From: a virus
Strand: one strand, 5' to 3'
Virus record (IMG/VR): IMGVR_UViG_3300001242_000018
Coordinates: 1-64,000 of that record
DNA length: 64,000 nucleotides
Part shown: piece after piece, positions 24,890 to 45,400 of the stretch
Position numbering within the stretch: position 1 is the stretch's first letter
Layout of the letters: each line of letters begins with the position of its first letter
Position numbers and translations under genes: made by a program
Notes under the pieces: model-generated
The model's database searches: none
What the model was told of the DNA's origin: nothing
Seen by the model: only the letters and a program-made list of their open reading frames with translations

Positions 24890-25618
24890 ATGCAAAGGAT
24901 TATTGCGGAACTTAAGAAGATACACAACCCATTATTCTGTACGCAGATCGGTAATGAATATTACATCTGGAGACTTCTAACAAGAAAAGAAAATAAGTTT
25001 ATAGCTGGATTAGGGTTATCCGAAATGGATATGGAAGATGTAGTCTGTTCTACTTGCGTACTTTACCCGGTAGTAAATTGGAGTGTGTATAAAGCTGGTG
25101 TGGCTAAAGCACTCTTTCCTTTAATATACGATGAGTCTGGATATAGAGATCCTAATCAAAGTCGGTACCTTTATGAATTCTATCGACAAGAGATAGAAGA
25201 TAATAAAGTACATCAAGCCGAACTTATGATAAGTACAGCTTTCCCAGAGATTAGTATAGAAGAAATGAGCGACTGGGATGCCGCAAAGCTATGGAAAAAG
25301 GTAGCTGAAGCTGAGTATAAACTAAATCTTATCAATAAGGTATACTCTATACCCGGGTATAGTCTTAGCGTTACATTTAATGACGAAGAGAAATCATCTA
25401 AGAAAGAAATGACTGAGAAAATGAGAGCAGCGGGTATAGATCCGATGCTAACGATAGATAAATCACGTTGGGATAAGAACTATTTAAAATTCCCATTCAT
25501 TGTTGGTCAAAGGGATTTTATAAACGGTATAGAGTGGGAAAATCCTACGGAAAATGAGGAGTTATTCAATGCCGTCCAACGACAACTTTTGGAAAGAAAG
25601 TATAGACGGAAATCCTGA
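24890..25618 (+). CDS. Second tail assembly chaperone
   Basis: 242 residues, SD AAGGGGGCT. It shares a pattern with the preceding protein: YYIWRLLTRKENKFIAGLG aligns with FIWRSISRTEYKAITSA, and VVCSTCVLYPVVNWSVYKAGVAKALFPLI with its counterpart. The remaining ~120 residues are helical (RYLYEFYRQEIEDNKVHQAELMI). It is probably a long chaperone isoform domain, as in G/GT pairs, that loads the tape measure. It ends in TGA followed within three codons by an in-frame TAA. It overlaps the start of the giant gene by 50 bases, implying coupling. Confidence 0.6.
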   Translation: MQRIIAELKKIHNPLFCTQIGNEYYIWRLLTRKENKFIAGLGLSEMDMEDVVCSTCVLYPVVNWSVYKAGVAKALFPLIYDESGYRDPNQSRYLYEFYRQEIEDNKVHQAELMISTAFPEISIEEMSDWDAAKLWKKVAEAEYKLNLINKVYSIPGYSLSVTFNDEEKSSKKEMTEKMRAAGIDPMLTIDKSRWDKNYLKFPFIVGQRDFINGIEWENPTENEELFNAVQRQLLERKYRRKS

Positions 25619-28600
25619 ACATCATAAATACCTAAACCCAGATCATTACTACGAGAATAAAGGTTCGCCATTGCGAACCTTTTTGACTACTACGGGTATA
25701 GGTACTGCTTTATTCCTTGGAGGTAGACATGCTTTTAGAAGAGGTGCTTTTAACGATATCTCTAAAAGCTTTATTAAAGCTATGGGAAGGTTTAGGCCTA
25801 CCGAAGCTGATGCTATACTATCTTCTGTTAAAGAGTGGGCTAAAGGGCCATTACCATGGGATCAATATAGTACTCTTAAAGATAAACTCCTTGGTAGTCA
25901 CGGTATACTCGGGGCCGGCTGGGAAGAAAGTATGACAGAGTTATCCAATAAGATTGCTGCTAAAAGAGCTAATTTAATGCAAAGAGGCGTTACTGGTGGT
26001 AAGCTTATTACAGACGATCTTGATATAGAACGGCGGCTCAGAGAAACTGAACGAGTAATGGAGCATGCTCGCACGGTCGATACTAGAAGACAACGTATTG
26101 TTCAGGATAAAACTAAACAGTTTCTTTCTAGTTATAACGAGTACACACAAGAGATGCGTGAAACAGATCTTAGAAAGTACGGTATGCGTCGGGCTACCGT
26201 AGGCGATCTTTGGAATCACCAAAATAGTAAAGGTGCTTTATTCAATAGAAACCGATTAAATAGTCGTGACATAATCTCTAAGTACAGAGTAGAACTGGGT
26301 GAACAAAATCTATTTAATAAAATGGCAGACCCTTGGGTTTTTATCGACGAGGCAAGTAAATTACACGATTTGCGTTATTGGCCTAAGGTAGGAAAGTCGG
26401 TACTCAATTCTATGGAAACTGATTTCGGGTTACCGTTTGTAAACTTTAATCCGCTGGCAATGTTTCACGTTGGAGATATGTTAAATGTTAGAGATAGACC
26501 AATGATTCATCTTATGAGTCCGGATGAAATACAACCTGTATTATCCGGTAGAGAATCTACAAAGAAACTTTATCTAATGCTTGATGATATGCTTCATGAT
26601 GTAGAAGATGCAAGTAAAGCACCCATCAAAGGTTATTTAATAAATGCGAAGGTCGGCCCTGGGCGGACATTCTTACAAGGAATTAGCGGTGCCGGATTAC
26701 CAAAACCTGAAGATTACCAATATCCTACTAGTGGATGGCGTAAACATTGGGCCTGGTTCACTAGGAAACTTGATATAGGTCACCAGCAAAAAGATGATTA
26801 TAATCGAGAATTTGATATAACGAATGCTCTAACAGATATTATAGCAAAGCCAGCTGATATGTTTTGGAAGCACATGCTTCCGTACGAGAATCGTGGTCTT
26901 TTCTCCGGTAGACCTTTCGGTTCCACCTGGGGTAGAGCCGGACAAGAAGAAAGTGAAACAAACTGGCTTTTTATGCGTAGCATTCGCTATGAAAATCCTA
27001 TAGATATTACAAAGCAATTCTTCGCTCATAGAGATCGTCCAGAAGATACAACTACACTGTCAGTGCCGTTTTATTATTTCTTTTCTAGGTTAGATGCAGC
27101 CTTGGCTACATTTCGTTTAGGTTTATCTGCCGAGCATAGGAAAAGTGGGGCTGATATATTTCTTAACATGGTATTGCGTAGAGCTGTACCTGTATGGGCC
27201 GGACTTGAAGCTTGGGATTATATGAATTATGAAACTGAGAATCTTACAGGGATTCGCCCGGATGATATGATAGCTGAAGGTTATTCAGAGGTAAGTACGG
27301 GTATAGCCAAAGTTAAAGATGTACTTGGTATAACAGACATGGCTAAACAAGTTAAGAACCTTTTACCCGGTGGCGAGCAGATTGCAGAATTTCCATTGAT
27401 AGGTAGATTCTTCGATCTTGACGATACCGAGGAAGAAACCGAGGAGTTCTGGGAAAAAGGAGAAGTTCCGATAAGAAAAGGTCGTTGGTGGTTTATGGGA
27501 AATACGCCACTAACCGGCAGCCGGACGATGTATTACTCACCAAATTGGGTAAGACGTACTAAATCTCATTATGAATATACTGATACTCAGTACGGGAGTG
27601 AGGGTGAATACTTTGCTAACGCACCTTATCCTACTCCTCGATACCCATTAGCTCCTTTACGTCATTTCGTAACTGAACCATATCACTTTGAAGAAAAACA
27701 TTATAAAGATAGACCATACCTATTAACCGGTGGAACACCTGAACTTGAGGAGTTTCCATTGATAGGCCCACTACTTAATGCAACTATTGGCCAACTATTA
27801 AAACCACAAAGACCAATGCATCCCGAAGTATGGCGGAAGATAGAGGGCGAGGATGATACCACAGTAGCTACTGAGCCAAAGAGTTACGAAACCCCTAATG
27901 ATGAATATTACAACCAACAATGGGGCTATAAGAAAATCGGGGCCGGGCCTGCCATTGGTACTGTAATGAAAGATTCTCATAAAGAAAGTATTGTAGCTGT
28001 TATTGATAGTGGTGTGGATAAAGATCATCCAGATCTTAAGGGTAAGATACTACCTGGAAAAAGCTTTGCTAAGAGGTATAAAGACTTTCAACATACCGAG
28101 GTTAGTTACGCTCCGTGGGATGAAGATACGATCGGACATGGTACCCACGTTACAGGTACTATAGCGGCTATTGGCGATAATAAAGAGGGTGTGGCCGGTG
28201 TAGCTTGGCCCTCGGTTAAGATATTGCCTATTAAGGTATTTGATAGTGGAGGAGCTCCTACTGAAGATGTTGTTAAAGGAATTGATTATGCGATAAAGTG
28301 GAGAGGAGCTAATGGTCAGAAGGTAGATGTCATTAACATGAGCCTTGGTAGCCCTAACATTAACCCAGGTTATAGTGATGCAATTAAACGAGCGTACAAC
28401 TCTGGTATCGTAGTAGTTGCGGCCTCTGGTAATGAGTATCAGACCGAACATGTAGGAAGTCCTGCTATATATCCGGAAGCTATCGCGGTAGGCGCCGTTG
28501 GGCCTAATATGAAAAAAGCAGATTTCTCTAATAGCGGTGCAGGTCTTGATGTGGTGGCGCCCGGTGTCGATATTGCAAGTACGCTACCAGAAGATTCTCA

Positions 28601-31355
28601 AATGGGTAGTATGTACGGAGTGTCAAGTGGTACTTCAATGGCTACTCCTCATGTAGCTGCTACTGCGGCGCTTCTAAAAACACAACGTCCCGACCTTACC
28701 CCGGCGGAAATTAAGTTCCTAATTCAATCTACGGCTGTAGATTTAGAGGAAGATGGATGGGATAAAGAGACTGGTCACGGCCTTGTTAATGCTTATACGG
28801 CAACGTCTATCTTATCAGGAATGAGTGATGAAGAGCGGGAACTTATCCGTAAAGGTGGCTCACTTGAAAGTGAGCAGATTAATAAAGAACGTATTGCTCT
28901 TATTAATGCAATACGCGAAAGTGGTATAACTAAAGCCGCATTTGAAACAGTAGGTAAGTCTTTAGTTGATAAATATAATAGAGAAATTAAGAACCCTGTT
29001 GATACAGATATGGCTATACTCCAAACCTGGGAGAATGTTAAAGAGTTCGGTGGCTTTTATGGCTTTAGTACAGAACTTCTTTATGATACAGGTAAGGGTA
29101 TAGAACCTCAAATTGCCACAGCTCGTGCTATGAGTTCTTATAGAAGAGAATTCTGGGATACGGAACTCGGTGGCATTCCGGGCGATATTAACGAAATTGC
29201 CCGTCGCTTTATTGGACACCGTGAGAAATGGGAGAATCGATATAATCCTGTACCAAATACTATGCCGGATTGGCTGCCCGGTGAAGAATACTTCACGGAT
29301 TTTAAAACTGGCGACCCTTATGTAAAAATACGTCGTGGAGAAATGCGATTACCAGGAGAGGCGTACGAATCTCTCCATCCCGATACGGCAGCCGAGGTTG
29401 AAAAGGCTTTAGAAGATCCTGAAATAAGAAGGAAATTAGAAGCCGGAGAGATTCATAGAGGAGAGTTATACGGCCCTATATCAAGGTTTAGAATTTTGGC
29501 AGATGTGGCTCCTTGGTCTACACAGTATGACGAAGCCTCTAAGTTCGTTACAGAAATGAAGAAAACCAAAGAGCAAGAACAAGAGGTTAAAGAGATAAGA
29601 AAACAAGTAAAAGACCGTAACGATCCGATACGCCTATACCCGTATAGGTTTAAAGATAAAGAGACTAAGAGTGAGACTGTTACTGTAACCAAGGTACTTG
29701 ATGATTGGGAAGATAGTCATGATTACTTCTTCTATACCAAAGAGTATCCAGACAATCCTATCAAACTTGCCGGCCTACGTGTACCAATGAGTAAGGAGAA
29801 GGCGGGAGCTCGTCAATTCCTTAACAAGTATATCAAACCGGGTGAACAAGTGACTATCGAGTATACGGCAGACGATGTAACTAAAATCAACGATGACACA
29901 TATAAGACTATCTCAGCGGTAGTATATACGGGTAATGAGAATCTAAATAGGCAACTATTAGAGCAAGACTTAGCTAATGAAAAAGATAACGATTTTACTC
30001 CGGCTGGAATAGTTGCTAGGTTTACGCCGAGTGAGCGAGCAATGGGTCAAGCATGGGAGAAATTCGCTCACCTGGATACGCCATTTCATACAAAGCTTTT
30101 GCAGGTACGTTCTCCTATCGAAAGCTACAAACGTCGTGATTTGTACGGCAAAGACTGGCAGATGTGGCAAGATCCCTGGGAAGATTATGTTGTTCCGACT
30201 TATCAATCGATAATGTCTAAAGGGATGATAGTAGGAGGACTGTTTGGCGGATTTATGGGATACTTAGCCGGACGTAAACGGTTTGGTAAGATTATAGCTA
30301 CAGGTCTGGGTGCCGTACTGGGTGGTACTGGCGGTGCATATTTCACTGGACACGAATTCGTAACAGGTGAAACCTGGGTACCAGAACGTCGTAAGAAAGA
30401 ATGGGAAACCCATGAGTATTACGATATGTTAAAGTATTTGAAGAATGTCTCTCTTTATAATAAGTATGCTCAAGAAGCGCTTGATACAGAGAAGTTCGAT
30501 GTTAAGAAGTACCTTCAAGAGAAAGATGAGCAGAAGAAGATTGACAGTAAACGTACTAATGAATTAGAAAGTGCTAAACGTGATATTAAAGGTACTACTG
30601 ATAATGTTGACGTTAATGAATGGATTACCAAGCTAAATCTTACAGGTAACCCCAGGGATGAGCGCGAACTTATCAAACTGATTAACCAAGAATTAACCAA
30701 GTTAAAAGCTCCAAAGAAAGAAGAGAAACTAACACCACTGGCTCAAAAGGCTCTTGATTATTACAATGAAAGTAAAAGTACTATGTACGGTCATAAGCCA
30801 CAAGATCCTCTAAAGGATCTGTTACGAGCTATACCAAAGAAAGAGCGACAATACTTAGAAGGCTTTATTAATGCTACCCCGGATGAAAGAGAAGAGCTAC
30901 GTGATATAATGTCTCCATATATGAAACGTATTGTTCAGGAAGCCTGGGGAGAGAAAGCGTCTGAAAAGCAAAGTCTTCTTGAATACTTCAAAGCTCACTT
31001 CTTACCTGACCCGGAGTGGGGCGGCTGGCGAGAAGATGTAAATCTTAATAACGTAAAGGTTAAATATATTAAAGCTGAAAGTATGGATCCGTCTGAATTT
31101 GATATATGGCCAGATGATGAGATTGCTGCTAATGAACCAAATGTTCCGCCGGCGCCAAAGATTAATATACATGAGACGGCCAATACTATTAAGAGTAAAT
31201 TACAATCTATTCTAGGTGGCGCCGGAATAGATGCTGAAATACAGATAGAACCAAACGATACGGGACAATTATCAGTAGAGGTTGAGACACAAAGAGATAT
31301 TAGACAAGATATAGCCAATTGTATGAATAACTATAGTAGTTTGGTATTAGGTTAG
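25569..31355 (+). CDS. Tape-measure-like giant protein with embedded subtilisin protease and SNase-like fold
   Basis: I chose ATG 25569, preceded by GAGGAG; an ATG at 25554 is in frame but lacks spacing. About 1928 residues. Residues ~30-60 hold a hydrophobic segment. About 805-1075 is a complete peptidase S8 domain: Asp in VIDSG (813), His in GHGTHVTG (857), Asn in AASGN (955), Ser in GTSMATPH (1023); the triad is intact. About 1365-1475 resembles a staphylococcal-nuclease fold (VTVTKVLDD, IKLAGLRVP, NLNRQLLEQDLA), but the usual catalytic Arg/Asp/Glu residues do not line up, so it is likely inactive. About 1547-1595 is Gly-rich and hydrophobic (glycine zipper-like), suited to membrane insertion. 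Position after the chaperones and the size fit a tape-measure or a tape-measure-associated protein. A protease here could process virion proteins or act on the host envelope; both are inference. Confidence 0.75.
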   Translation: MPSNDNFWKESIDGNPEHHKYLNPDHYYENKGSPLRTFLTTTGIGTALFLGGRHAFRRGAFNDISKSFIKAMGRFRPTEADAILSSVKEWAKGPLPWDQYSTLKDKLLGSHGILGAGWEESMTELSNKIAAKRANLMQRGVTGGKLITDDLDIERRLRETERVMEHARTVDTRRQRIVQDKTKQFLSSYNEYTQEMRETDLRKYGMRRATVGDLWNHQNSKGALFNRNRLNSRDIISKYRVELGEQNLFNKMADPWVFIDEASKLHDLRYWPKVGKSVLNSMETDFGLPFVNFNPLAMFHVGDMLNVRDRPMIHLMSPDEIQPVLSGRESTKKLYLMLDDMLHDVEDASKAPIKGYLINAKVGPGRTFLQGISGAGLPKPEDYQYPTSGWRKHWAWFTRKLDIGHQQKDDYNREFDITNALTDIIAKPADMFWKHMLPYENRGLFSGRPFGSTWGRAGQEESETNWLFMRSIRYENPIDITKQFFAHRDRPEDTTTLSVPFYYFFSRLDAALATFRLGLSAEHRKSGADIFLNMVLRRAVPVWAGLEAWDYMNYETENLTGIRPDDMIAEGYSEVSTGIAKVKDVLGITDMAKQVKNLLPGGEQIAEFPLIGRFFDLDDTEEETEEFWEKGEVPIRKGRWWFMGNTPLTGSRTMYYSPNWVRRTKSHYEYTDTQYGSEGEYFANAPYPTPRYPLAPLRHFVTEPYHFEEKHYKDRPYLLTGGTPELEEFPLIGPLLNATIGQLLKPQRPMHPEVWRKIEGEDDTTVATEPKSYETPNDEYYNQQWGYKKIGAGPAIGTVMKDSHKESIVAVIDSGVDKDHPDLKGKILPGKSFAKRYKDFQHTEVSYAPWDEDTIGHGTHVTGTIAAIGDNKEGVAGVAWPSVKILPIKVFDSGGAPTEDVVKGIDYAIKWRGANGQKVDVINMSLGSPNINPGYSDAIKRAYNSGIVVVAASGNEYQTEHVGSPAIYPEAIAVGAVGPNMKKADFSNSGAGLDVVAPGVDIASTLPEDSQMGSMYGVSSGTSMATPHVAATAALLKTQRPDLTPAEIKFLIQSTAVDLEEDGWDKETGHGLVNAYTATSILSGMSDEERELIRKGGSLESEQINKERIALINAIRESGITKAAFETVGKSLVDKYNREIKNPVDTDMAILQTWENVKEFGGFYGFSTELLYDTGKGIEPQIATARAMSSYRREFWDTELGGIPGDINEIARRFIGHREKWENRYNPVPNTMPDWLPGEEYFTDFKTGDPYVKIRRGEMRLPGEAYESLHPDTAAEVEKALEDPEIRRKLEAGEIHRGELYGPISRFRILADVAPWSTQYDEASKFVTEMKKTKEQEQEVKEIRKQVKDRNDPIRLYPYRFKDKETKSETVTVTKVLDDWEDSHDYFFYTKEYPDNPIKLAGLRVPMSKEKAGARQFLNKYIKPGEQVTIEYTADDVTKINDDTYKTISAVVYTGNENLNRQLLEQDLANEKDNDFTPAGIVARFTPSERAMGQAWEKFAHLDTPFHTKLLQVRSPIESYKRRDLYGKDWQMWQDPWEDYVVPTYQSIMSKGMIVGGLFGGFMGYLAGRKRFGKIIATGLGAVLGGTGGAYFTGHEFVTGETWVPERRKKEWETHEYYDMLKYLKNVSLYNKYAQEALDTEKFDVKKYLQEKDEQKKIDSKRTNELESAKRDIKGTTDNVDVNEWITKLNLTGNPRDERELIKLINQELTKLKAPKKEEKLTPLAQKALDYYNESKSTMYGHKPQDPLKDLLRAIPKKERQYLEGFINATPDEREELRDIMSPYMKRIVQEAWGEKASEKQSLLEYFKAHFLPDPEWGGWREDVNLNNVKVKYIKAESMDPSEFDIWPDDEIAANEPNVPPAPKINIHETANTIKSKLQSILGGAGIDAEIQIEPNDTGQLSVEVETQRDIRQDIANCMNNYSSLVLG
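25659..25684 (+). terminator. Terminator-like hairpin early in giant gene
   Basis: AAAGGTTCGC, loop CATT, then GCGAACCTTT followed by TT. It lies about 90 bases into the coding sequence. The T-run is short and partly in the stem, so it is terminator-like rather than proven; it could attenuate transcription unless ribosomes follow closely. Confidence 0.5.
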
Positions 31356-31366
31356 GGGTGAATAAT

Positions 31367-34300
31367 ATGTCTGATATTAAGGGCAATTTTACTATAGAAA
31401 GTAGAAGACGCGACCTTCGTGATAAGCTTATCACGAAGGTAGGGGAAGGAAAGTACAAAGAGCGTACTATATATAATATTATAGCCGCAGCCGACTTTGA
31501 AGCTCTTGTTCCTATGACACTGGATAGACGTAATCGACCACTGCCTGTTCATTTCGATGAATCTGTATTTAAGGCTATGCATGAGCGACAAATTGATGGT
31601 GTACGGTTTTCTGACCTATGGGCGGCCGAGATGGAGCAATACCTTGGGGAAGATACGCAGCTATCAAAAGCTGTTCAGACGAATCTGAGACTGGCTAATA
31701 AGACCATTGGTATAGACATTCCTAAAACTAATGAGCAAGACTCTGTTAAAAGCACTATTCCTGTAAAGGAAATAAAGAGTAGTAAACCAGGAGTTACAAT
31801 GACAGAAGCGGTATCTGCTATTCTTAATATACCGGAACAGGATGCTAAAGAACTTCTTAAGAAAACTCCATGGCAAATTGAAGAGGCGTTAAGAGAAACT
31901 AGTATTGATAGCATTATAGAGACTCTAGATGAAGGCGAACCTACCCATGCAAAGGTTCGTGCTAATATTCTTGAGAATATGATAGAGACAGGACACGATA
32001 CTAACACTCTTGCAAATATGGTACATAAATACCAGAGTCTTAATCTATCTGAAGAACTACGAAAGAAGTGGTTATCAGGAATAGATTCTGTAGATTTTAC
32101 GAAGTTAGCCTCCGATACTCGTAAGATTGAGGGGGCTGGCAAGGAACTTTACGGCAATATTCGAACGGAGATTAATCAAATCAAGCATTACAAAACCAAG
32201 ATGAAAGACTTATATGTTAGGGCTAAAGATATCGGTACCCAGATTATCGAAGTACAAGCTCGGATAGATCTTTTACCTGAAGAGAAATCTGCCATGATTA
32301 TAGAATCGTATGCTGATAGCTTTGATAAAGTCGCTTTTGAAGTAGCTAATTTGCAGAAAGAGGCTGCTAGGACTATAAGACATATACCCGTAACTACAGA
32401 AAATGGTGAGATCTTACGTACACCTATCGGGCAGGCTGTCAATGCTTTCATTGAATCTAATAAAGATGTACTACCAAGTGATACAGTATCATTAATTAGA
32501 AAAGAATTAGACAATTACTATGGTGATGATAAGCTCATCTATAATGCTAGGAACGAGGTACCTGCCGGGATATATGATATTGAAAAGCCAGGGAGCTTAA
32601 CGGGTTTTGCTTGGGGAGAACACTCTATTGTCAAGGACGATCCTCGTCTTACACAGTTAGAAAGAATAGCTTTACAATTAGATACGATGGTTAATGGACA
32701 ACCTGTAGAACGTATCGAGTATGAAAATCAACCAGGAGTTAAAGAGACATCTGCTCGTCGATACGATGACTGGAGAGAAAAAGCCAATAGAGATATAGCT
32801 GAATATATCAGCGAGGATGCTAAGGCAACTCAAATGGGTACTAATGTTGGTCAGCGCACACAGAATGTAATAGCTCAACAACAGATAGAAGGTATTGCAA
32901 AAGAGCTTAATATAGAGGCACCAAAGATTCCAAAAACCTGGTGGACTTATACTGGAGATAAAGATAACTCCGTTTTAACACCGATTGAACTGGCAGAGAA
33001 TATGGAGTTTGAGGATAATCTAAAGATGCTTCTAGAAGCATCTAGAGAATCTGGTGATAAATTTGGACGGGAAGGTTCTCCTTTAGAGAATTTCCGTAGA
33101 GCTGTTACTGAGAATATCTTAGTCAAATCCGGAGTAGACCAATACGTTCCGGTAGAAGGTTTGACAGAAGATATTATCAACAAGAACCTTACCGATTGGA
33201 GTCGTTATGTCGGTAAGGATAAGTACCTATATAGGTTCGGTGGTGATAAACTTGCTTATAAACTAAAAGAGGTAAACGGAATTCGTGGTATCTTTGTATC
33301 AGAGGCTATAGATCCTTCTAAGACTAAAATAGAATTTGATATTGCAAACAATTTTGACATTAAAGGCTGGGTTGAAGAATTCAATGATAAGAACTTATCC
33401 AAAGCTGTAAGGGATAAGGATGCTTTTATCAGTAACTTGTTACAATCTAATTGGTCTTATATCGAAGATGGTAAGTATGCTGATAATCAAAATATCGTAA
33501 GCCAGGTATTAGCCCAGCATACTATAACAGAGGGCCCTCATGGTCAAGGTATATTAAAAGTTGTATCAGAAGTGGAAAAACTGCTACAAGGGCGCCTCGG
33601 CTATACTTACGATCGTAATCCCGAACTTTACCTGGATGCTACACAAGATCTTACTATAGCTGTTATGCAGGCTCAGGAAACTAGCAAGAGTGGTATCGCT
33701 TCTTCTGAAGAGATATTGAGGCACTATTATCAATTACAAGCAGACCCTAGCGCATACGCTATGGACACTTCCAGCTGGATAGAACCTGGTGATGAATTCT
33801 ATAGGAGTGAAAGAGTATGGCATACCGGGCGAATGGCTACTGTTGAGATAATTAAAGAGATGGAGAAGGCCGGTATCGATACTAGTAATCATCGAGATAT
33901 AGTATCACGTCTTGTTGGTGTGAGAGAATATATTACTAATAATGCCGGTAAAGAAGGCACAGTCCACTGGGGTAAGATGGGTTATCTTAACACAATTCGA
34001 GCTATATCTAAAAAGGAGCTTGAGCAAATCGCCAAAGATTATATTCATGGCGGTAAGATGGTTCAAGATAATGCAACTCGTAAAGAGTTTAGGGAACTTA
34101 GTTTCGAAAGTATTGTAGAATCTTATACAGACCAAGAGACTGGTCAAGTAATAGGTGGACGTACTTACGAAGAGGCATTACTTCAAAACATGGCGGAAGA
34201 TTATCAAGAAAAGACCGGACGAAAATGGAATAAGGTAAAACGTAAAGAAGATATTGAAAACATCTTTAAAGCTATTAGAGATGGTAAGGATGATTACGAT

Positions 34301-37300
34301 AAGGCTTATGATAGTTTAGCCCAGCGTATGGATTTAAGTAGTATGAATGCAGAAGAAGTAGATGCTCTTATTAGTAAAGAACGTAATGCTATTGTAGATA
34401 AAAGATTAAGGCAGGTAGTTATCTCTCGTCTAGATGGTAGAAAGGTAAGTAAGGAAGAGCTAACCACTCTTGTTGAGAAAGAGCGTAAAACTGATATTAA
34501 TAGACAGAATCGTATTCTTTCTTTAATGGATGTAAACGATAGCGGTTCAATTGGACGCACAGAACAAGAGATGCTTGCTACTGAATATACGGCTATTATA
34601 AAAAGTCAGAATCCTGAGATGGGATATCTTGATCTATTAGAGAAAACTGCTTCTGTTACAGGCACTCATAATATACAGGCAGCGTTTAACCCTACTGAGT
34701 TTATAGAATCTCTACTGGATGAAGAGGGACGAAATGCATTAAACCGCGAACATACCGGTAGCTATGTAGTTTTACAATCTATGGCTATGATGAATAAAGA
34801 AGACGGTTTTAATTTTACAGTTACGGATGAACATGGACGACAGTTCGTTCCCGTATTTGGTGAAGATGGAGATCTTCTAGCACAATATGACGATCATAGT
34901 AAACTTATTAGTCGCACCGGCAGAGGGGTTACAAGAGCTGAAGATTTAGGACATGTACGCCCGGTTGCATTCGTACGTTCTAATATAGAAGAGACCAGTT
35001 CTACAGTTATCGATAGTCAAGATAAGTACGTTAAATCTCTTGGTGCTCAATATGACGCTCTTGTTCGAATGAGAGATAACTCCTGGTTAAAACAAAATCC
35101 GGCAGATACGTTTATGAATTTAGAAGCCGTACTAGCCGGACATAAGGCAGTAGTTCTTGACTTTGAAACTACCGGTCTTTTAGACCATCCAGATTTGCAG
35201 ATTCTTGAGATCGCCACCATGGATATTGAAGCTCCCGATGGTAAACCAAAGTACGGGGAAGCTGAATCTATACTTATTAAGCCATTGCAAAAAACACTTG
35301 ATAGAATGAATAAGATTACGGATAGTATATACTTGCAGAAAGAGATTATGAACAACACGGCAAGAGTTCCGAAAGTTGGAGCTTATGAGCATATTGGTCA
35401 ATTTGCAACTAAGGCTAGAGAATTACAGGTTAAGATAGAGAATACTCCTCTTGATAGTGTAGAACGGGCTGAAAGTATCGATGCTTTAAAGAAACTTCAG
35501 AAAGTAGTTACCACCGATGATGTAATGTTTATGCGTAATATAGCAAAGTTTTCTGACCCGGAGTGGGCAAGAAAAGATGTGAAGAATCTTGATAAAACGT
35601 ACACAGTCGACAAGCTGTTTAATGATACTAAAAGAGCTATACAAAGATTAGATAGCGAAGGTGTCGATTTAGAAGAAGGTCTCTCTATACTTAAAGAGAG
35701 GTTAGATGATAAAGCTATAGTTGGGCATAACGTTGCCAGTTTTGATATACCAATGCTTACTAAAGCTATAGATGATTTACCACACGATATCATTAACCGG
35801 GAAATCGATAAAACTAAAAACCTGCTAGAGGATACTACCGATAAAGATGAGATCAAGCGTTATCAGAATCGTATTAAAGCGCTTGACGATCTTCTTACAA
35901 TTCAGGATGTAGGTGAAGTTAAGGCAAGAATCGATACTAATGCCGAGGTTGTTAAAAATGACGCTAGGTCATTTAACATAAGAGAAGGTAGTACTAGGTT
36001 TAACTTTACCAAACTAGCAGAACCTCAAATTAATCCATGGTATACCGAGGGTACTTTTAACCGGGTAGCTGGAGTGTTAGGTGTTACGGATATTCAGTTT
36101 AATAATTTATTAAACAGTGACAATGGTGTTGAAGAAATTAGAAATAGACTGAGTACAGTAGATTACGATTCACTTAAAACAGGATTGCAATCTACGATAG
36201 ATAGTCAGGATACAACATCATACGCTAAAGGAATAGCACGTCGCCGCCTTAAAATAGTAAATGGATTATCCGAGGCCGGAGTGGCCCCGACCGATATGGT
36301 AATTGACCGAGTCCCTTTACCGCCAGATGATATACCTGTAAGGACTAATGAATTTCAAAAGGCCTATAATAAATTACACAGCGTTAATTACCGGTTAACC
36401 GGTAGCTTAGGATCTGGTGATAGCACTATAATAGAAAGAGATAGAGTTAGCTTACGTAATAGCTTTAACGAGCTGATGCGAATTGCTACTCCGCCAGATA
36501 CATCTAGCAATAACCGGTGGGTAACTTCCGCATCCGGAATACCGAGTGAGTGGGATATTGTAGGCGAGAACGAAATCCTAGACAACTATTCTAAAACCCT
36601 AACCGGATTTGCAGATGAAGCTAACTATTGGGACGATCTTAAATCCAGGATGCAGAATGTTGATGATATTACAGAACACTCTAAAAACCTACCACTTATA
36701 GATACGCTACCGTTATTTAGATGGACAAAACCAGGCAGCGGTCATAGTATTGAAAAGGTACAAGAGCACTATGGAGCGGCTATGGAGAAGGAAGGATGGG
36801 TTCCAGGGACACATCACATTGGTAAAGAAGATGTGCAGACGGAAGGATACGGTCTTATCCAGATGATTAATGACTATAAAGGCTCCAAAGGACAAATAGA
36901 TAATTTCTTAGAACCTTGGCAACAAGGTGATATGTTTGCCGTTATAAGTCAAGAAGGAACTAACAATATCCCTATTGGTGAGTACGAGTTTGTGAAACAA
37001 GAGGGCCCAAAAGTCATAGCTAAAGAGTTAGATACGGGTAATGTCGTAAATATCGATTTCGATAATCAAGCCAAGGGGCAGAGATGGTTTACGCAGAATG
37101 TTAAAGAGATTAACACTCCCGGAGAGTTTAACGAGCAGCTACTTTTAGATGACGTAAACAGGGCCATTCAAAAGGGTCTTAATAAAGGTATCGCAGGTAT
37201 CGATTATTTAAAGTTCCAGTCAGGTGACGATAGTGTTGATAGCTGGAATAAAGCTTACAATAGGCTAAATCAAATCCAGGGCGAACTTGATACGGTTGAT

Positions 37301-39460
37301 CGATATGTACAAGAATCTATGACAGACGTATCTGGTGTGGAAAAAGATGAGTTACGTAGACAGGCTGGACAAATGAAACAAGAGTATATACAAAGCTTAT
37401 CTCCAGACGATCAAGCTCTCTTGTTAAATCGGCATAAGTTTAATGAGATTCAAAGTGATATTATTAACGACACAAAGCTGAGCCCTCGGCAGCTAAGAAA
37501 AGTCGAGAGTATAGCATCAATACTTGATAGCGATTTATTCCGTGATGTAATAACCCCTAAGATGCAAGAAATCGAGGATACTGTTGGTTCAGGTAAGATT
37601 ACCAGGAATGACGCAGAGGAAATGGTTAGAGATATAAACAATGCTATTAAAGAGAATGTTCCAAAGCGAAAAGTCGAACATCTAAGTAACCTTGGTAACA
37701 TCACCTACAAGGGTAAGAGAGTTGGACAAATGCACCTAGACCTGGCTAACGAAGCTACTATTATGCGAAGTCTTTATAGTTCGGCTGAAATAATCGGGGA
37801 AGAGCTTTTCCCAACACATGCCGAAAACGATGCAAAAGCTAAAGCTATAAACGAGGTATTACTACCATGGATGAAAAGAAATGGTTTTAGTAGCGCCGAA
37901 CGGCTTGAGGATGTAGCAAATTATATAATGCGTAATAAAGATAAGCTAAGTCTCTCGGCAGCCGAGATTACCGATTGGTCGATACCTGTAGGGAAAGGTA
38001 CTCAAGTATATGTCGATTCTGAAATAGCAATTAATAAAGCTTTCAATGAAAGACTTTCATCAATTCATAAGAGACAAATTGATCAAGGTATTGAATTGCA
38101 CGAAGGTCATGATTTAGCCGAGCGGGTCATTAGAAATACCAGAGAGATGACCCAAGCTGAGTACGGTGTTATACCTGGTATGAGATATAACATAGGTACC
38201 CGTGGTGAAGATGTGAATGTTGTTATGCAGAAGATTGGCCGGCCGTTAAACGGTGTCGATGGAATGTCCTTAGAAGAGATACATGAGAATTTCCTACGAC
38301 ATCAAGAGACCGTAGAAGGACTTACTGATGAGTTGCTTGAGACAACACGCGAAATGGATATCGCTAGACAAGAACGCATACCTCACTTTAATGTACGGCA
38401 GGCTGCTAAAAACCGGCGTGAGATCTTTAACAATCTTATAGAAGCTCAAAAGGAAAGAAATCCTTATCTAAATGCTCTATCGACCGTAGCAGACTTAGAC
38501 GCTGGCTTAGATAGTGTAAGCGATTTAACATTAAGAGCTAGAGAAATGTTAGGTCAGGTAAGAGTCGACCAGCCGACTGGGGAAGAGCGAATTACTAAAT
38601 GGGATTACAGCGCAGTACCGGAAGGTTCTAAAGCTTCTGTTAATTATACAGGTTTTAGACTTACAGATATACCGGATGAAGCGCTGACTGATTATATTAA
38701 GTATCAAAATATCGGTGGCCATGAGCGCGAACGAGGAATGGTAGGAAATTATCTACAGCAAAAAGGGTACAAAGCTTATGATGAAGCTGGTCAAGAAATG
38801 AGCAACTGGAATGACTGGCGCCGGCAGCCGCCTCCCGACGCCGGAGATTACACAATACAACGGCCAGAGCAATTAAGCGAGGGTGACGAACAAGTTCGTC
38901 AATTAAACGAAGAGGCTAAACAAGGTAAAGTGACTAGGGCCGATAGTCCTAAAGAACTTGTTGCGGCTATGAATGAAGAGAGTAAAAGAGCTGTACCAGA
39001 GAGCGTACCAACCGATGATAAAGGGTTCTTCAGAACATTATTCGACGAGGCTAAAACTAACGGTAGACTTAAATGGCTAATGGGTTTGGCGGGTGGACTT
39101 GCTGTAGCCGGTTTTAGTTTACGTCAGTTATCTAATCAAAGACCTTTTGAACCGGAAGAGGAAGGTAATACTGAAAGTCGAGATATGTCATCTAATACCG
39201 GCCCCATGATTGATAAGAATACTTATATGGAGCATCCGGATAATACCGGAGGAGCTCAAATTAAGATTAAAACAAAACCAGGCAACATACCGCACGATCA
39301 GATCGGTAATATTGTAAGTGAGACAATAAATAGCGAATTGCCAGGTGTTGATATCAATGTAAATCTAACTGATAATACTTCGAACATTAGTACCGAATAT
39401 GTAAGAAGTATCTTGAACCAATACGTCTCACATGGTTATGTTGTTAATCGAGGTGAATAA
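31367..39460 (+). CDS. 2697-residue virion protein with DnaQ-type exonuclease core and EF-hand loop
   Basis: Start ATG 31367 with AGGGGTGA; an in-frame GTG at 31358 overlaps that SD. Largely helical and charged. About residues 1055-1066 is an EF-hand/dockerin-type calcium loop (DVNDSGSIGRTE). About 1258-1470 is a DnaQ/RNase T-like exonuclease core: motif I is AVVLDFETTGL (Asp 1265, Glu 1267), and motif II GHNVASFD (His 1454, Asp 1460). The gap between them (about 190 residues) is longer than usual, and I cannot place motif III. A hydrophobic stretch lies near 2565-2590 (LMGLAGGLAVAGFSL). It lies between the protease-bearing giant gene and the hub gene, so it is probably a second tape-measure-like or tail-lumen protein ejected with the DNA. 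Exonuclease activity is not established. The 28-base palindrome near its start is listed separately. Confidence 0.65.
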   Translation: MSDIKGNFTIESRRRDLRDKLITKVGEGKYKERTIYNIIAAADFEALVPMTLDRRNRPLPVHFDESVFKAMHERQIDGVRFSDLWAAEMEQYLGEDTQLSKAVQTNLRLANKTIGIDIPKTNEQDSVKSTIPVKEIKSSKPGVTMTEAVSAILNIPEQDAKELLKKTPWQIEEALRETSIDSIIETLDEGEPTHAKVRANILENMIETGHDTNTLANMVHKYQSLNLSEELRKKWLSGIDSVDFTKLASDTRKIEGAGKELYGNIRTEINQIKHYKTKMKDLYVRAKDIGTQIIEVQARIDLLPEEKSAMIIESYADSFDKVAFEVANLQKEAARTIRHIPVTTENGEILRTPIGQAVNAFIESNKDVLPSDTVSLIRKELDNYYGDDKLIYNARNEVPAGIYDIEKPGSLTGFAWGEHSIVKDDPRLTQLERIALQLDTMVNGQPVERIEYENQPGVKETSARRYDDWREKANRDIAEYISEDAKATQMGTNVGQRTQNVIAQQQIEGIAKELNIEAPKIPKTWWTYTGDKDNSVLTPIELAENMEFEDNLKMLLEASRESGDKFGREGSPLENFRRAVTENILVKSGVDQYVPVEGLTEDIINKNLTDWSRYVGKDKYLYRFGGDKLAYKLKEVNGIRGIFVSEAIDPSKTKIEFDIANNFDIKGWVEEFNDKNLSKAVRDKDAFISNLLQSNWSYIEDGKYADNQNIVSQVLAQHTITEGPHGQGILKVVSEVEKLLQGRLGYTYDRNPELYLDATQDLTIAVMQAQETSKSGIASSEEILRHYYQLQADPSAYAMDTSSWIEPGDEFYRSERVWHTGRMATVEIIKEMEKAGIDTSNHRDIVSRLVGVREYITNNAGKEGTVHWGKMGYLNTIRAISKKELEQIAKDYIHGGKMVQDNATRKEFRELSFESIVESYTDQETGQVIGGRTYEEALLQNMAEDYQEKTGRKWNKVKRKEDIENIFKAIRDGKDDYDKAYDSLAQRMDLSSMNAEEVDALISKERNAIVDKRLRQVVISRLDGRKVSKEELTTLVEKERKTDINRQNRILSLMDVNDSGSIGRTEQEMLATEYTAIIKSQNPEMGYLDLLEKTASVTGTHNIQAAFNPTEFIESLLDEEGRNALNREHTGSYVVLQSMAMMNKEDGFNFTVTDEHGRQFVPVFGEDGDLLAQYDDHSKLISRTGRGVTRAEDLGHVRPVAFVRSNIEETSSTVIDSQDKYVKSLGAQYDALVRMRDNSWLKQNPADTFMNLEAVLAGHKAVVLDFETTGLLDHPDLQILEIATMDIEAPDGKPKYGEAESILIKPLQKTLDRMNKITDSIYLQKEIMNNTARVPKVGAYEHIGQFATKARELQVKIENTPLDSVERAESIDALKKLQKVVTTDDVMFMRNIAKFSDPEWARKDVKNLDKTYTVDKLFNDTKRAIQRLDSEGVDLEEGLSILKERLDDKAIVGHNVASFDIPMLTKAIDDLPHDIINREIDKTKNLLEDTTDKDEIKRYQNRIKALDDLLTIQDVGEVKARIDTNAEVVKNDARSFNIREGSTRFNFTKLAEPQINPWYTEGTFNRVAGVLGVTDIQFNNLLNSDNGVEEIRNRLSTVDYDSLKTGLQSTIDSQDTTSYAKGIARRRLKIVNGLSEAGVAPTDMVIDRVPLPPDDIPVRTNEFQKAYNKLHSVNYRLTGSLGSGDSTIIERDRVSLRNSFNELMRIATPPDTSSNNRWVTSASGIPSEWDIVGENEILDNYSKTLTGFADEANYWDDLKSRMQNVDDITEHSKNLPLIDTLPLFRWTKPGSGHSIEKVQEHYGAAMEKEGWVPGTHHIGKEDVQTEGYGLIQMINDYKGSKGQIDNFLEPWQQGDMFAVISQEGTNNIPIGEYEFVKQEGPKVIAKELDTGNVVNIDFDNQAKGQRWFTQNVKEINTPGEFNEQLLLDDVNRAIQKGLNKGIAGIDYLKFQSGDDSVDSWNKAYNRLNQIQGELDTVDRYVQESMTDVSGVEKDELRRQAGQMKQEYIQSLSPDDQALLLNRHKFNEIQSDIINDTKLSPRQLRKVESIASILDSDLFRDVITPKMQEIEDTVGSGKITRNDAEEMVRDINNAIKENVPKRKVEHLSNLGNITYKGKRVGQMHLDLANEATIMRSLYSSAEIIGEELFPTHAENDAKAKAINEVLLPWMKRNGFSSAERLEDVANYIMRNKDKLSLSAAEITDWSIPVGKGTQVYVDSEIAINKAFNERLSSIHKRQIDQGIELHEGHDLAERVIRNTREMTQAEYGVIPGMRYNIGTRGEDVNVVMQKIGRPLNGVDGMSLEEIHENFLRHQETVEGLTDELLETTREMDIARQERIPHFNVRQAAKNRREIFNNLIEAQKERNPYLNALSTVADLDAGLDSVSDLTLRAREMLGQVRVDQPTGEERITKWDYSAVPEGSKASVNYTGFRLTDIPDEALTDYIKYQNIGGHERERGMVGNYLQQKGYKAYDEAGQEMSNWNDWRRQPPPDAGDYTIQRPEQLSEGDEQVRQLNEEAKQGKVTRADSPKELVAAMNEESKRAVPESVPTDDKGFFRTLFDEAKTNGRLKWLMGLAGGLAVAGFSLRQLSNQRPFEPEEEGNTESRDMSSNTGPMIDKNTYMEHPDNTGGAQIKIKTKPGNIPHDQIGNIVSETINSELPGVDINVNLTDNTSNISTEYVRSILNQYVSHGYVVNRGE
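31413..31440 (+). repeat. 28-base perfect palindrome early in 2697-residue gene
   Basis: ACCTTCGTGATAAG followed directly by CTTATCACGAAGGT. As RNA it would fold into a stem of about 12 bp with a tetraloop, 46 bases after the start codon. As DNA it could also bind a dimeric protein. No T-run follows. Confidence 0.6.
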
Positions 39461-39463
39461 ATA

Positions 39464-42400
39464 ATGAGTGGCTATACTATTACTGAAGCATTTTTAAGTC
39501 CTTGTAGGAATAGACCTGGTGATAAAAGAACTCCTCAAGGGATCGTTATCCATAGGACGGGTGTGAATCAACCCGACCCTAATATTATACGAAGAAATAT
39601 GCAAAACGATAATCCTTATCCGGCTAGTTCTCATTACGTTATAGGTTCTAATCAAATACTTTATATTATCCCGGATGATGAGCGGGCTCATCATACCGTA
39701 GGTGGTAATAATTGTATTGGTATTGAAACTTGCGAACCTATTACAGCCGGCTCGTTAGCGAGATTGGTGTGGCTATGTGCTTACTTATGCGATAAATGGA
39801 GATTTCCTAAAACAGAGCAAAGTATTAAACCTCATAGCTACTACGATTCCAATACACGACCACACGATCCATTTAGCTGGAGTCTCTATAAGGCCGGTAA
39901 GGCAGATCCTAATGGAGTGATCGATCCTTTTGCTTTCTATAGAGCTATTAATCAATCTACTTCCGGTGGAGGTACTGCTGTAGTACCTCCACCATCATCG
40001 ACGCCCGTTGGTATATCGACGGATGCCGTTAGCGGTATACAACCATTCAATACGGATTTCATAAAATGGGATGCAATCGATCTATTCGGACTAGATACAG
40101 ATATCGTTCCCGGGTGGCGTAACAGAGCAACACCATTTCATTTGCGTATTGGTGATAGCGTATTCTTTGTTCCACCAACTTCTATTAAAGTTAAAACTGT
40201 TGGAAATGTGTCTACTATGAAATCCATGAGATCTAAAAGTAGTATTAAGACTAAGAGTGGATATACCCAAACAGAGATACGTTTAACTCTGTACTTTGGT
40301 GATATCGAGCAGATTAATGGATTCCCGGTAGCGGGGCCGGCCGGTGAGATTTACAGCATGGATGGATTAAGACCACTTCTGGCACAATTCATGAGAACGC
40401 CAATCATACCTGTAGTTAATGAACGACTTAATGACGTGTTTGGTATATATAATGTATGCCTATCGTCTATAACTGGATATACGGATAAGGACTTCCCCGA
40501 TACATTGTCTGTAGAACTTATTATGCATAAGACAACAGTAATGCCATATATCCAAAGGCATGATGCCGATCTTGACCGTATGATTTGTTATCCATTATTC
40601 CGTTGGTATTATCAGCAAGTACTTCAGCCTACAGCATTGGGACGGGTGAATCAATCATGGTTACAGCCGATTGTTAATTATATGAATGGCTCATTTAAGT
40701 TTTATATTATTGATAGTAGTTTTCTTGAAACTAACGATGTAGTCTCTATTGCGGCCGGCATTGCTATGGTAGAGGTAGATATACCAAATGATGAAGTAAT
40801 AATCAATTCCATGTCTTTAACTACTCATAATTTATTTAGTGCGGTACATTTACAAATGCATACCGATCCGTCTCACCAATACATGGGATCGTTAGATACT
40901 AATATCTTTATTCAGCTAGAGACAGAGAATAGAGATATTGTTAAACAATTTGTTGACTTGCAAAAACTTACAGAAGAATATGCTATCAACTATCGTGATA
41001 AATTAGTTTCAGGCTTTGTAAAGTTAGAGAATGAACTGGTTCAGTTATTCGGAGTAGAGTATGTAATGATTCATGCTATAGAAATTGATACCGTAGAAAA
41101 TGAGCCAGGCATGACACGAATTGCTATAGCTTGTGTCAGTTACGACCCGAGTCAGAAAGATAATGAAGCTGTTGACGGTTTCCTGCCGTTTCATGATAAA
41201 ACCAATCTAGTAGGTAATGTACAAAGCGTACTGTTAAATAGTATGGCAGATGCGCCTACCGAGTACTTACAGACTATGGTTGCTGAAGAGGTTGTAAATA
41301 ACTTAGACCTATACCCGGATCTCGAATTGCCATCGTATAATCAAGTGGCACAAGCTCTGCTCGATATAAACGCGCAGAGAAGGCAACGTAATTTAAAGGA
41401 TCTTGATTTTAATGTGTTTGTCTCTCCGGCATTAAGAGGTAAGAATTATTCAGGCTTTAGAGTCGATCCTGACTTTTATGTTAAATACGATTATTTACAT
41501 CTTGGCGGAATGGTTAATCCAGCTATAGTAAATGGAGGTACAATCAATAGTAGCTATCCTGCAGGTATTGGTATAGATCCTAACGCACCTACACCAGTCT
41601 CGACAACCACCGTTACGACTAATACTACAACTTCAGTTCCGGGAGAACAAAGGACATTCGAGATAACAGCGTATTGCGCTTGTCAAAAGTGTTGTGGCAA
41701 GTCTCCGGGGAGTCCTGGTTACGGTGTTACAGCAAGTGGAGTTATGGTTAAAGAGTGGCATACCATTGCTGTAGATAGGAATGTTATACCAATGGGTAGC
41801 TGGGTATATATTCCTTACTTTAAGAACAAACCTAATGGAGGCTGGTTTAAAGCCGAAGATACCGGCGGGGCCATTAAGGGTAATAGGATAGATGTTTATT
41901 ACAAGAGCCACCAGGAGGCATTAAACTTCGGAAGACAAAGATTGCCTGTCATAATAAGTAAAGAAAAGGGAGCGACTCCTCCCAGCGGAACTGCCGGAAC
42001 TACAATGTCTGTTAATCCTACAGCTAACTCTTCTAAAACAAAAACAGAGTTCATAGCACTGGTTAAGGCTCAAGTAGGTAAACCTTATGTTGTTACTACA
42101 GAGGGGCCTGATACTTTCGATTGCTCTGGTCTTGTACAATGGACATTCGCTCAGTTTGGAGTTAATATAACTCGCCTTACTTATACTCAATGGAAACAGT
42201 GTCAAGAAATAACCAAAGGTGATTTGACTGTAGGTGATTTGATTTATACAAGATGGGGAGATGGCCCAGATCCGGTCAATCCAGACCATGTTGGTATATA
42301 CTTAGGCGATAATACTATTGTTCATGCTAAGGGTAAAGCTTATGGAGTAGTTCAAATTAGTGGTAACAGTCTTGGTGCAGATTCTCGCTACTTTAGATAC

Positions 42401-45400
42401 TTACCGATGGCCGAGGTTTTACAGACAGGAGCAGTAAGTTCGTCCTCGGGTATATATAACTCAACAGATAGTACAGGCCTTAATTGGAAAGATGAAAAAC
42501 TTCCAGATTGGATTTATGCACAAACACCGCCGGTAATGACTAAACCTTACGGAGAGAGAGTTCAAGCTCCGGACATATCTAAGCCCGAAGGTATTGACGA
42601 GTTGGCTAGACAGATGTGCCATGATTGGCTTACTTATTCTTGGGATGGAAGATTCGTTAAAGCATTTCCAACCTTTGCTATGGTGATATTAGACGAAGGT
42701 ATGTGGATAAGTGGTAGAAGAACGTGGACAAACTTTTATACCTACCATTCTGTGTTGAATATAACTACTGTCAAAGATCGAGACAATCCTGTAGACCTTG
42801 CTATTATATCTCTTACGAATATCTATGGTAGCCTAAATGCCAAACTTAGATATAAAGCTAAGGGAGGAGATACCTGGGCTAATAATATCTTTCCTCGGAT
42901 AGATATGTCAATTCTAAAACAAAGAGCCGAAGTGCTAAAGAACATTAGTCTAAAGACCGGTGCTAGGGTGCATCTCAAAATGGGATATGGTTCTGTTGCA
43001 GAATGTTTACCTACAGCTTTTAATGGTGTGATAGCAGACATAGATTCCAGGGAGAATATGACTATTATATGTCAAGGTGATGGTATAGAGCTGGTCGATC
43101 CTATATTAGAGTGGGATGAGAATCAAAGAACCAGTATCTTTAATTTAACCAGTACCCCGTGGACAATGTTTTACATGATACTAGCCCACCGTGGACTCAT
43201 GTTTCACTGGGGTAATAGTATGGTCGTTCAGGAGTTTATTAAAGGATTGAAAAGTACTATCGATCTTGCAGAGACGTTTGCAGACTGGGTTAGTAGTATG
43301 ATAGAAAAAGGAAAACTGGAGAAAGCACCAGAGAAGCTATCAAATGCTATTAAAAGTGTAACAATGGTAAATCCCGCAGGAGAGACTGGAACAGATGAAG
43401 AGCATTTTGATATAGCATGTGTAAATGCCGGTATTTATGCAAGTTATATGACAGTCGATCAAGTCAAACCCGAACAATGGCAAAGGTGTATAGAAATATA
43501 CAAAGAAAGAACTGGTAAATCTATTACAGTCGAACAGGCTAAACAAATGTTCGTTGGTGGCCAGGAAAAGGTAGAAGCCGCTACAGGGGAAATGATGCCA
43601 GAATCCTTAGACGGTTATATCTTTGGAGATGCCAACCCTTATGGTATTGAACACTTCGGTTATGTATATAAGAAAGAAGATGACATATCCTGGGGTGGCG
43701 ACCCGGAAAGAAGTACCGATATAGACAGTGGTAAGAAGATAAGCGCCTATGATACTATGAAGAATATCTATGATAGGAACCCGGCTTTTCCTAACGACCC
43801 TGACCCGGGTGTTAACTGGCTATGTCAGTTATTAGGCTTTATCGGATACGATGAAGATGCCGGCAAGGGCGGTATTCAAATGTATATAGGTGGTAAGAGT
43901 CCCTGGGATATCTTTAGGACAATATCCTTTGCAGAACGGGATAAGATAGTAGCCATTCACCACTACCATTTTAGAAGTACCTTGTTTTACGGGATGCCAC
44001 ATTGGCCGGTAAAATATGCATTAAGACTTAAGAGCGGGGATGGTACCAAGAAGGAAGATTATGAAGAGCTATATAAACCGTTTAGTCAATTCTGGCTTTA
44101 TAATAGTTACTATCATATTATTGATAATGGTATCCGCGCTAGTAATACGGATTTAGTAACTAATTGTGCAGCTATCTATTCTATTGAAGGTAAACCAGTT
44201 ACCAGTAAAGTAGTAAAGGCTGATAAGTATATTAAAAGAGAGCTTCAAAAGACAGAGATCTTTGATAGTACTACTATACAAGATAGCTTTATCCCTAATG
44301 CCATTCCCGCTATGGAAACTATACTACCTTTCCTTGGTTTTGCTACGGGCGAAAGTCGGGCTGTAGAGATGTGCCGCAGCCATTTAAGAGAGAAATTTAG
44401 AGGTATGTATCAGGGAGAACTTTTAATATTAGGACAAGTACCTAAGCAACATGATCAGTTTTATCTCGACGATGCTTATACCAAGATGAATGGTATGGCC
44501 GATATAGGGCGAGTCGTTATTCATATGGGATTTGATACAGGATTTATTACCTCTATTAAACCGGATTTACAGGTAGCTATTGCTGGGAGTGAAAGAAATA
44601 AAGCCCTTTTGGGTATATCGAGACGGGCCTTACAATTTGCTAAATACTCTGCTAACGGATTCTTATTCCTGCTTGCTTCTGGAGCATTTGTAGTCGGCGT
44701 TAAGAATGCGAAGTTAGCCGGTACGGTATGGACTGCTGTCAGAAGTATAAAGAACATAAGGACAGCTATCTCAGGATTAGGAACCATAGCCGGAGGGTTG
44801 GCGTTAACTGCCGGAGCCACCGCAGCTGCTATAGGAAGTATGTTAGGTGGTCTTGTTGTTACCATCTTTGGAGTTTTAGTATTAAATGGTATGTGTGAAC
44901 TATATGATAAATACACTAATCGCTATCAGCAGGAGATTAAGATATACCCATTATGGTATAAAGGGATGCCATATACTGCTGGTATAGACGGTCACCAAAC
45001 GTTAATTCCGGGTTTAAAAGATCCGTTTTATTATCCAGACCCTATTATAAAATGGGAGAATACCGGTGACAATGGTGCCACTTCTAAAGATGGTTCTCAG
45101 CCCGGGACTGGGAACGACGATTTGACAGATATTCTACAAAGACTTGGTTTTGTCTATGACGAATTTACTCCGGCTACAACCGGTCAACTTTCAGTACCTG
45201 GTACTGGTACAAATAGCGAATATAAGCCAAACGATCTTATGGATATATCCAGGGCTCGTTACTTTAGATGGCCTACAATGAGCCGTAAGATTACCGAAAT
45301 TTCAATAGGACGGATGGATAACAACGGTAAAAATTCTCACGTAAAAGGTATCGATATCGCAGGTAATCAAGACGATCCTGTATTCGTTGCTTGCTCTGGT

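Follow-up and report, generated by a model that had tools for sequence, protein, structure and literature searches.

The tail gene cluster of virus record IMGVR_UViG_3300001242_000018 encodes a giant protein that carries, in its middle, two motifs of a DnaQ-type exonuclease, and the question raised by this locus is whether the domain is complete and what such an enzyme would do in a phage tail. We analysed positions 1 to 64,000 of the record (a stretch of 64,000 nucleotides, here called the window). A previous description, made from the letters and their translations and here called the sequence-only reading, had noted well-formed motifs I and II in a virion protein of 2697 residues, a spacing between them that was wider than usual, and no motif III; it had left the choice between an exonuclease that enters the cell with the DNA and degrades host or competitor nucleic acid, and a dead scaffold. 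The features on which our analysis is based are listed in Table 1.

Table 1. Features of the giant tail gene and its neighbours (window coordinates)
Feature	Position	Strand	Residues	Remark
Upstream tail protein with inserted S8 subtilase	25554..31355	+		Peptidase_S8 E 6.5e-63
Giant tail protein gene	31367..39460	+		2697 aa from ATG 31367
Predicted DEDDh exonuclease, N-terminal half	35111..35764	+	1252-1469	Relative-only profile 42.2 bits; Pfam RNase_T 28.7 bits
Motif I, AVVLDFETTGL	35147..35179	+	Starts at 1264	D1268, E1270
Motif II, GHNVASFD	35723..35746	+	Starts at 1456	N1458, D1463
Insertion of about 309 residues between motif II and C-terminal half	35765..36691	+	1470-1778	From sequence
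Putative RNA polymerase beta' clamp-like stretch, inside the insertion	36038..36475	+	About 1561-1706	
Predicted exonuclease, C-terminal half	36692..36871	+	1779-1838	Conserved D1782
Motif III, HIGKED	36815..36832	+		H1820, D1825
Small beta domain after motif III (GD...GxYxV)	36914..37072	+		Strands pLDDT 76-83 in window model
Predicted membrane-spanning segment near C-terminus	39068..39121	+		By eye; same place in relatives
Conserved C-terminal tail domain, about 65 residues	39257..39457	+		Shared with 0305phi8-36, KLEB27-3, L007-L014
Downstream baseplate hub protein (amidase, 3D, NlpC/P60, M23)	39464..45685	+		

Position of the gene in the tail cluster

The open reading frame extends from 31358 to 39460 and has 2700 codons when counted from the GTG at 31358; counting from the ATG bears out the protein length given previously. 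The gene order, with a giant tail protein upstream and a gp27-type hub downstream, is that of a tape-measure gene and is the same as in the loci of 0305phi8-36 gp146, KLEB27-3 gp034 and MTATph1 CDS0027. Baseplate genes follow the hub and tail sheath genes precede the giant-protein region. The C-terminal regions gave a profile match (E 1.9e-12) and include a conserved tape-measure C-terminal segment. Since proteins in the same position are either annotated as structural (gp034 of Bacillus phage vB_BauM_KLEB27-3) or described as a tape measure (gp146 of 0305phi8-36, PMC2147016), the assignment as a virion protein of the tail is supported, and the window protein is very likely a component of its own virion. 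A role as a replicative proofreading subunit was weighed as well and not retained, given that the gene is located within the tail cluster.

It was also noticed that the subtilase domain of the upstream tail protein is complete and inserted at residues 810-1076, that residues 1419-1475 of the same protein gave a weak staphylococcal-nuclease match, and that the hub protein holds four peptidoglycan-cutting domains in a single polypeptide. Two tail sheath genes (15471-17117 and 17738-20323) are located in the same cluster, both with PHROG 16991. By eye, the upstream tail protein and the giant protein next to it end in similar sequences (31131-31355 and 39257-39457), perhaps a shared hub-docking end.

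A predicted split DEDDh exonuclease and its insertion

Motif I (DxE) and motif II (NxxxFD) were located where the sequence-only reading had placed them, and both are real beyond chance: Pfam RNase_T (Exonuclease, PF00929; cut-off 24 bits) scored 28.7 bits on the piece 35000-36001 and 21.5 bits on the whole protein, PHROG 192 ('DNA polymerase exonuclease subunit') matched with E 2e-7, and a profile built from 0305phi8-36, MTATph1, L072 and L089, with the window left out, matched residues 1252-1469 at 42 bits, as compared with at most 10.3 in 3000 block shuffles. The distance of about 190 residues between these motifs (192 from start to start) is indeed large relative to textbook DnaQ, whereas it is normal for the protein's own family, as the spacing ranges from 109 to 218 residues over the 30 DnaQ clusters described below. 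The interval 35120-35750, proposed as the exonuclease core, contains both motifs and covers only half the domain.

Motif III comes out in the wrong place when the giant proteins, or the split domain, are aligned globally with MAFFT, and half-domain profiles were preferred for this reason. A search for the matching His/Asp motif, which the previous description had proposed after failing to see one, revealed H1820xxxxD1825, preceded by the conserved D1782. The motif is situated 362 residues past motif II, outside the interval then considered, and was therefore missed. Residues 1779-1838 (PLIDTLPLFRW...THHIGKEDVQTEGYGLIQMI) contain D1782, H1820 and D1825; the stretch, also written PLIDTLPLFRW...HSIEKVQEHYG...GTHHIGKEDVQTEGYGLIQMI, holds the conserved Asp, His and Asp of DEDDh enzymes. 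BLASTP against the homologue of Moorella phage MTATph1 aligned motif III with a HEALTD motif (E 0.03), and a C-half profile from four relatives matched residues 1779-1877 with 10.2 bits for the best domain and 14.2 bits in total (3000 shuffles, at most 8.7). This was the better-trimmed profile; two other C-half profiles, the first one and a broad one, gave no significant match to motif III. Behind motif III, the small GD...GxYxV beta domain is found likewise in MTATph1, 0305phi8-36, L072 and L089, and gave weak SH3/Tudor-like Foldseek matches. An HxxxxD by itself is common; the profile score plus the colinearity lend moderate support to motif III. With it, all five catalytic residues (D1268, E1270, D1463, H1820, D1825) are present. 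Two other candidates in this region were rejected: NLLNSD (residues about 1583-1588) was dropped as motif III once MTATph1 had aligned elsewhere, and an SIS_2 Pfam match at 1793-1888, below cut-off and overlapping motif III, was taken as spurious. The structure model of the window protein (pLDDT 46, pTM 0.24) was too poor for an RNase H fold to be read from it, which counts against the explanation preferred here; the relatives matched RNase_H_2 and PolB exonuclease profiles.

Examination of the insertion suggested an RNA polymerase-related element. When residues 1215-1914 were compared with PDB sequences (phmmer), the best 28 matches were all RNA polymerase beta' subunits (E 0.012-0.35). A profile built from 30 beta' proteins of Bacillota scored 20 bits on the insertion, as compared with at most 6.8 for shuffles and 6.0 for 263 other open reading frames, and hhalign gave 82%. 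In the low-confidence model (pLDDT 46), residues about 1561-1650 superposed on the beta' clamp with Z 10.8 and rmsd 2.5 over 87 residues at 21% identity, and beta' chains made up almost all of the best 50 structural matches. These lines of evidence overlap to some extent, and the model may reproduce a family already known to AlphaFold. They are consistent but modest, and together they make it likely that the motif II-III insertion includes a beta'-clamp-like piece. Closer relatives of the insertion were searched for and none were found. Another beta'-like stretch, at 1024-1081, scored 3 bits when the whole protein was searched and 7.5 bits when taken as a separate piece, which was too weak to retain. 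The beta' clamp is the place where sigma region 2 binds. It was noticed that one of the proteins encoded by the same virus record contains sigma-70 region 2 (E 9.5e-11; L150 1665-2231, on the minus strand, or 123165-123731 of the record), and that a second open reading frame, at 97223-97996 of the record, weakly matches sigma region 4. Taken together, the clamp's affinity for sigma region 2 and the phage-encoded region 2 protein make a sigma-binding role worth testing, and no more than that.

Predicted exonuclease and RNA polymerase in related phages

A whole-protein search of viral contigs and annotated phages gave no match, and relatives were therefore reached via the neighbouring tail protein: with the upstream subtilase-bearing protein as bait, 109 syntenic loci were collected, whose giant proteins formed 75 clusters. 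A census by pattern wrongly took some other genes for DnaQ (LAVDIELLN...HIGGKDT), so that the final counts were made by profile. By this means the exonuclease was detected, in the gene at this position, in 30 of the 75 clusters. All 30 retained D, E, D, H and D by pattern, with motif II doubtful in L099 and two candidate motif III sites in L118.

The distance from motif II to motif III is mostly 58-110 residues in these clusters, and is 362 in the window, 244 in 0305phi8-36 and 182 in L072. It follows that the window has the largest spacing in the set, the ambiguous L118 aside, and one could argue from this, as well as from the modest best-domain score and the lack of significance with the broader C-half profile, that its motif III is a chance HxxxxD and that an incomplete, decayed exonuclease is followed by unrelated sequence. 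We consider this quite improbable, since D1782 before the motif and the GD...GxY domain after it are found in the same order in MTATph1, 0305phi8-36 (with Glu in place of the Asp), L072 and L089, and since long insertions at the same place are also present in 0305phi8-36 and L072.

A further possibility is that the domain is catalytically dead and acts as a structural or nucleic-acid-binding spacer of the tape measure. Two long insertions break it up; motif II has Ala in place of Phe in 0305phi8-36 (NVADAD) and L072 (NFAKAD); and L067, the closest relative by tail protein, has no detectable exonuclease. The latter indicates that the domain is accessory and dispensable in this gene, and it also weighs against our preferred explanation. 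Yet the catalytic residues are kept in all 30 clusters by pattern, and in an alignment of 6 proteins with 19-57% identity the five of them, together with the DxDxD of a polymerase (see below), are among the few invariant columns, a conservation that a mere spacer would not need. Because all five catalytic residues are kept in the window and in the other DnaQ clusters, the dead scaffold of the sequence-only reading is disfavoured; we regard it as improbable, and the predicted exonuclease as likely to be catalytically active.

In 24 clusters the giant protein has an RxP followed about 37 residues on by DxDxD, and 23 of these also have the exonuclease; the remaining clusters comprise 7 with DnaQ only, 1 with the polymerase motif only and 44 with neither (Fisher p 3.6e-12). 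The two lie on one polypeptide, the RxP...DxDxD being C-terminal to the exonuclease, as exemplified by 1) L007 14740-23634, 2) L014 13568-20347 and 3) KLEB27-3 gp034 (L002 11466-18770). Alignment of 16 proteins revealed 10 invariant columns, including K267, R736, P738, D774, D776 and D778, and when PDB sequences were searched blindly with a profile, all matches were RNA polymerase subunits (those of phiKZ and ASFV, matched at this site with a best E of 0.012). The AlphaFold model of the polymerase region of L014 (residues 1060-2010) had pLDDT 82 and pTM 0.78; its first half superposed on bacterial RpoB (Z 15.8, rmsd 4.8, 379 residues), and Foldseek ranked beta' chains first (E 7e-6). From this conservation and modelling we conclude that these relatives carry a predicted fused two-barrel RNA polymerase of the beta/beta' type. 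The DxDxD polymerase loop was also looked for in the window protein and is absent; a link to transcription would therefore be indirect in the window phage, and this, too, counts against the explanation that follows.

Possible role and comparison with known systems

We propose that the giant gene encodes a tape-measure-type protein which would occupy the lumen of the tail, its membrane segment and C-terminal tail domain lying close to the hub, and whose residues 1252-1840 would form one complete DEDDh (DnaQ-like) 3'-5' exonuclease, spread by two insertions. At infection the protein would be delivered into or through the envelope, a step we hold to be somewhat likely, and by analogy with the tape measure polymerase of P23-45 (PMC10770324) its entry into the cell is plausible. 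The exonuclease might then trim nucleic-acid 3' ends at the site of entry and thereby serve early gene expression. Most relatives have it fused in cis to a predicted two-barrel virion RNA polymerase, while in the window's branch the polymerase would have gone, the exonuclease been kept, and a beta'-clamp-like piece embedded in it. Taken as a whole, we give this explanation about an even chance; a function at early transcription or on the entering DNA in particular is possible, with the balance slightly against it. More tentatively, and with a lower probability, one may suppose that a large lineage of contractile-tailed phages packs an exonuclease-polymerase tail fusion, which would bring in both a virion RNA polymerase and a 3'-5' exonuclease that processes nascent RNA or the end of the entering DNA, and that in the window's branch, after loss of the polymerase, the beta'-clamp piece could bind sigma and redirect the host RNA polymerase.

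An active, delivered exonuclease could instead serve host takeover or counter-defence. It would then degrade nucleic acid of the host or of competitors, guide RNAs or signalling oligonucleotides, and would not be specially linked to transcription. DEDDh enzymes degrade many kinds of short nucleic acids, and the exonuclease persists in the 7 clusters without a polymerase motif. Injected multidomain effectors are, moreover, a known theme in phages (PMC5512222, PMC7824862). However, 23 of the 24 clusters with the polymerase have the exonuclease in the same polypeptide, which suggests a task in common, and partner domains of a toxin or defence type were not seen in these proteins, so that we rate this alternative as rather unlikely and retain a role in early gene expression as the preferred one.

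The exonuclease-polymerase fusion in many related phages suggests a tail-delivered machine for nucleic-acid processing, and the data suggest a second, widespread lineage with a tape-measure virion polymerase, here with an exonuclease attached whose catalytic residues are conserved. They permit a direct test of which enzymes are brought in by phage tails and of whether transcription of the entering genome needs processing of RNA or DNA ends, and they assign a testable enzymatic role to part of the long-known 'tape measure' protein of 0305phi8-36.

In 0305phi8-36, orf146 (gp146), the gene before the gp27-type hub, was identified as the tape measure from the way in which it relates to the length of the tail, and a distant relative could be aligned with no more than its last 60 residues (PMC2147016); this C-terminal segment is the part that is conserved here too. 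No mention of the exonuclease was found in that paper. Like the window protein, gp146 (in L011, which is taken to be this phage) has the same gene position, C-terminal membrane segment and tail domain, and DEDDh motifs I, II and III in mid-protein with an insertion between II and III; it differs in having NVADAD rather than NVASFD as motif II, a shorter II-III stretch and an insertion with no detectable similarity to the beta' clamp. Among the other syntenic proteins with complete DEDDh motifs, KLEB27-3 gp034 has, unlike the window protein, its exonuclease at the N-terminus plus a polymerase motif, and MTATph1 CDS0027 lacks the II-III insertion. The MTATph1 gene looks split by an insertion element, as its C-terminal tail domain is found beyond, in CDS0031; genes for an IS21-like transposase and its ATP-binding helper (L003 15738-17989) are situated directly 3' of this homologue.

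Relative to DnaQ/epsilon and other DEDDh enzymes (PF00929), the window protein shares the D, E, D, H, D motifs and has a significant match in the first half, but it differs in its two long insertions, its setting in a 2697-residue tail protein and the absence of a polymerase III context. The nearest precedent for an enzyme of this sort is gp96 of Thermus phage P23-45, a tape measure fused to a virion RNA polymerase whose structure and activity were shown; it was published in 2024 as a surprise, in one thermophilic phage, and neither exonuclease nor DnaQ is mentioned in that paper (PMC10770324). Both are giant tail-length proteins with a nucleic-acid enzyme, and the window's relatives also have a predicted two-barrel polymerase with DxDxD, whereas the window protein itself is without a polymerase and its relatives are contractile-tailed phages of the 0305phi8-36 type. 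No association of an exonuclease with a tape measure was evident from the paper titles listed in a limited literature search, a negative result that is not proof. Enzymes in tape measure proteins were already known, while the fusion of exonuclease, polymerase and tail protein appears to be new, as does the polymerase-less version of the window with its beta'-clamp-like insertion.
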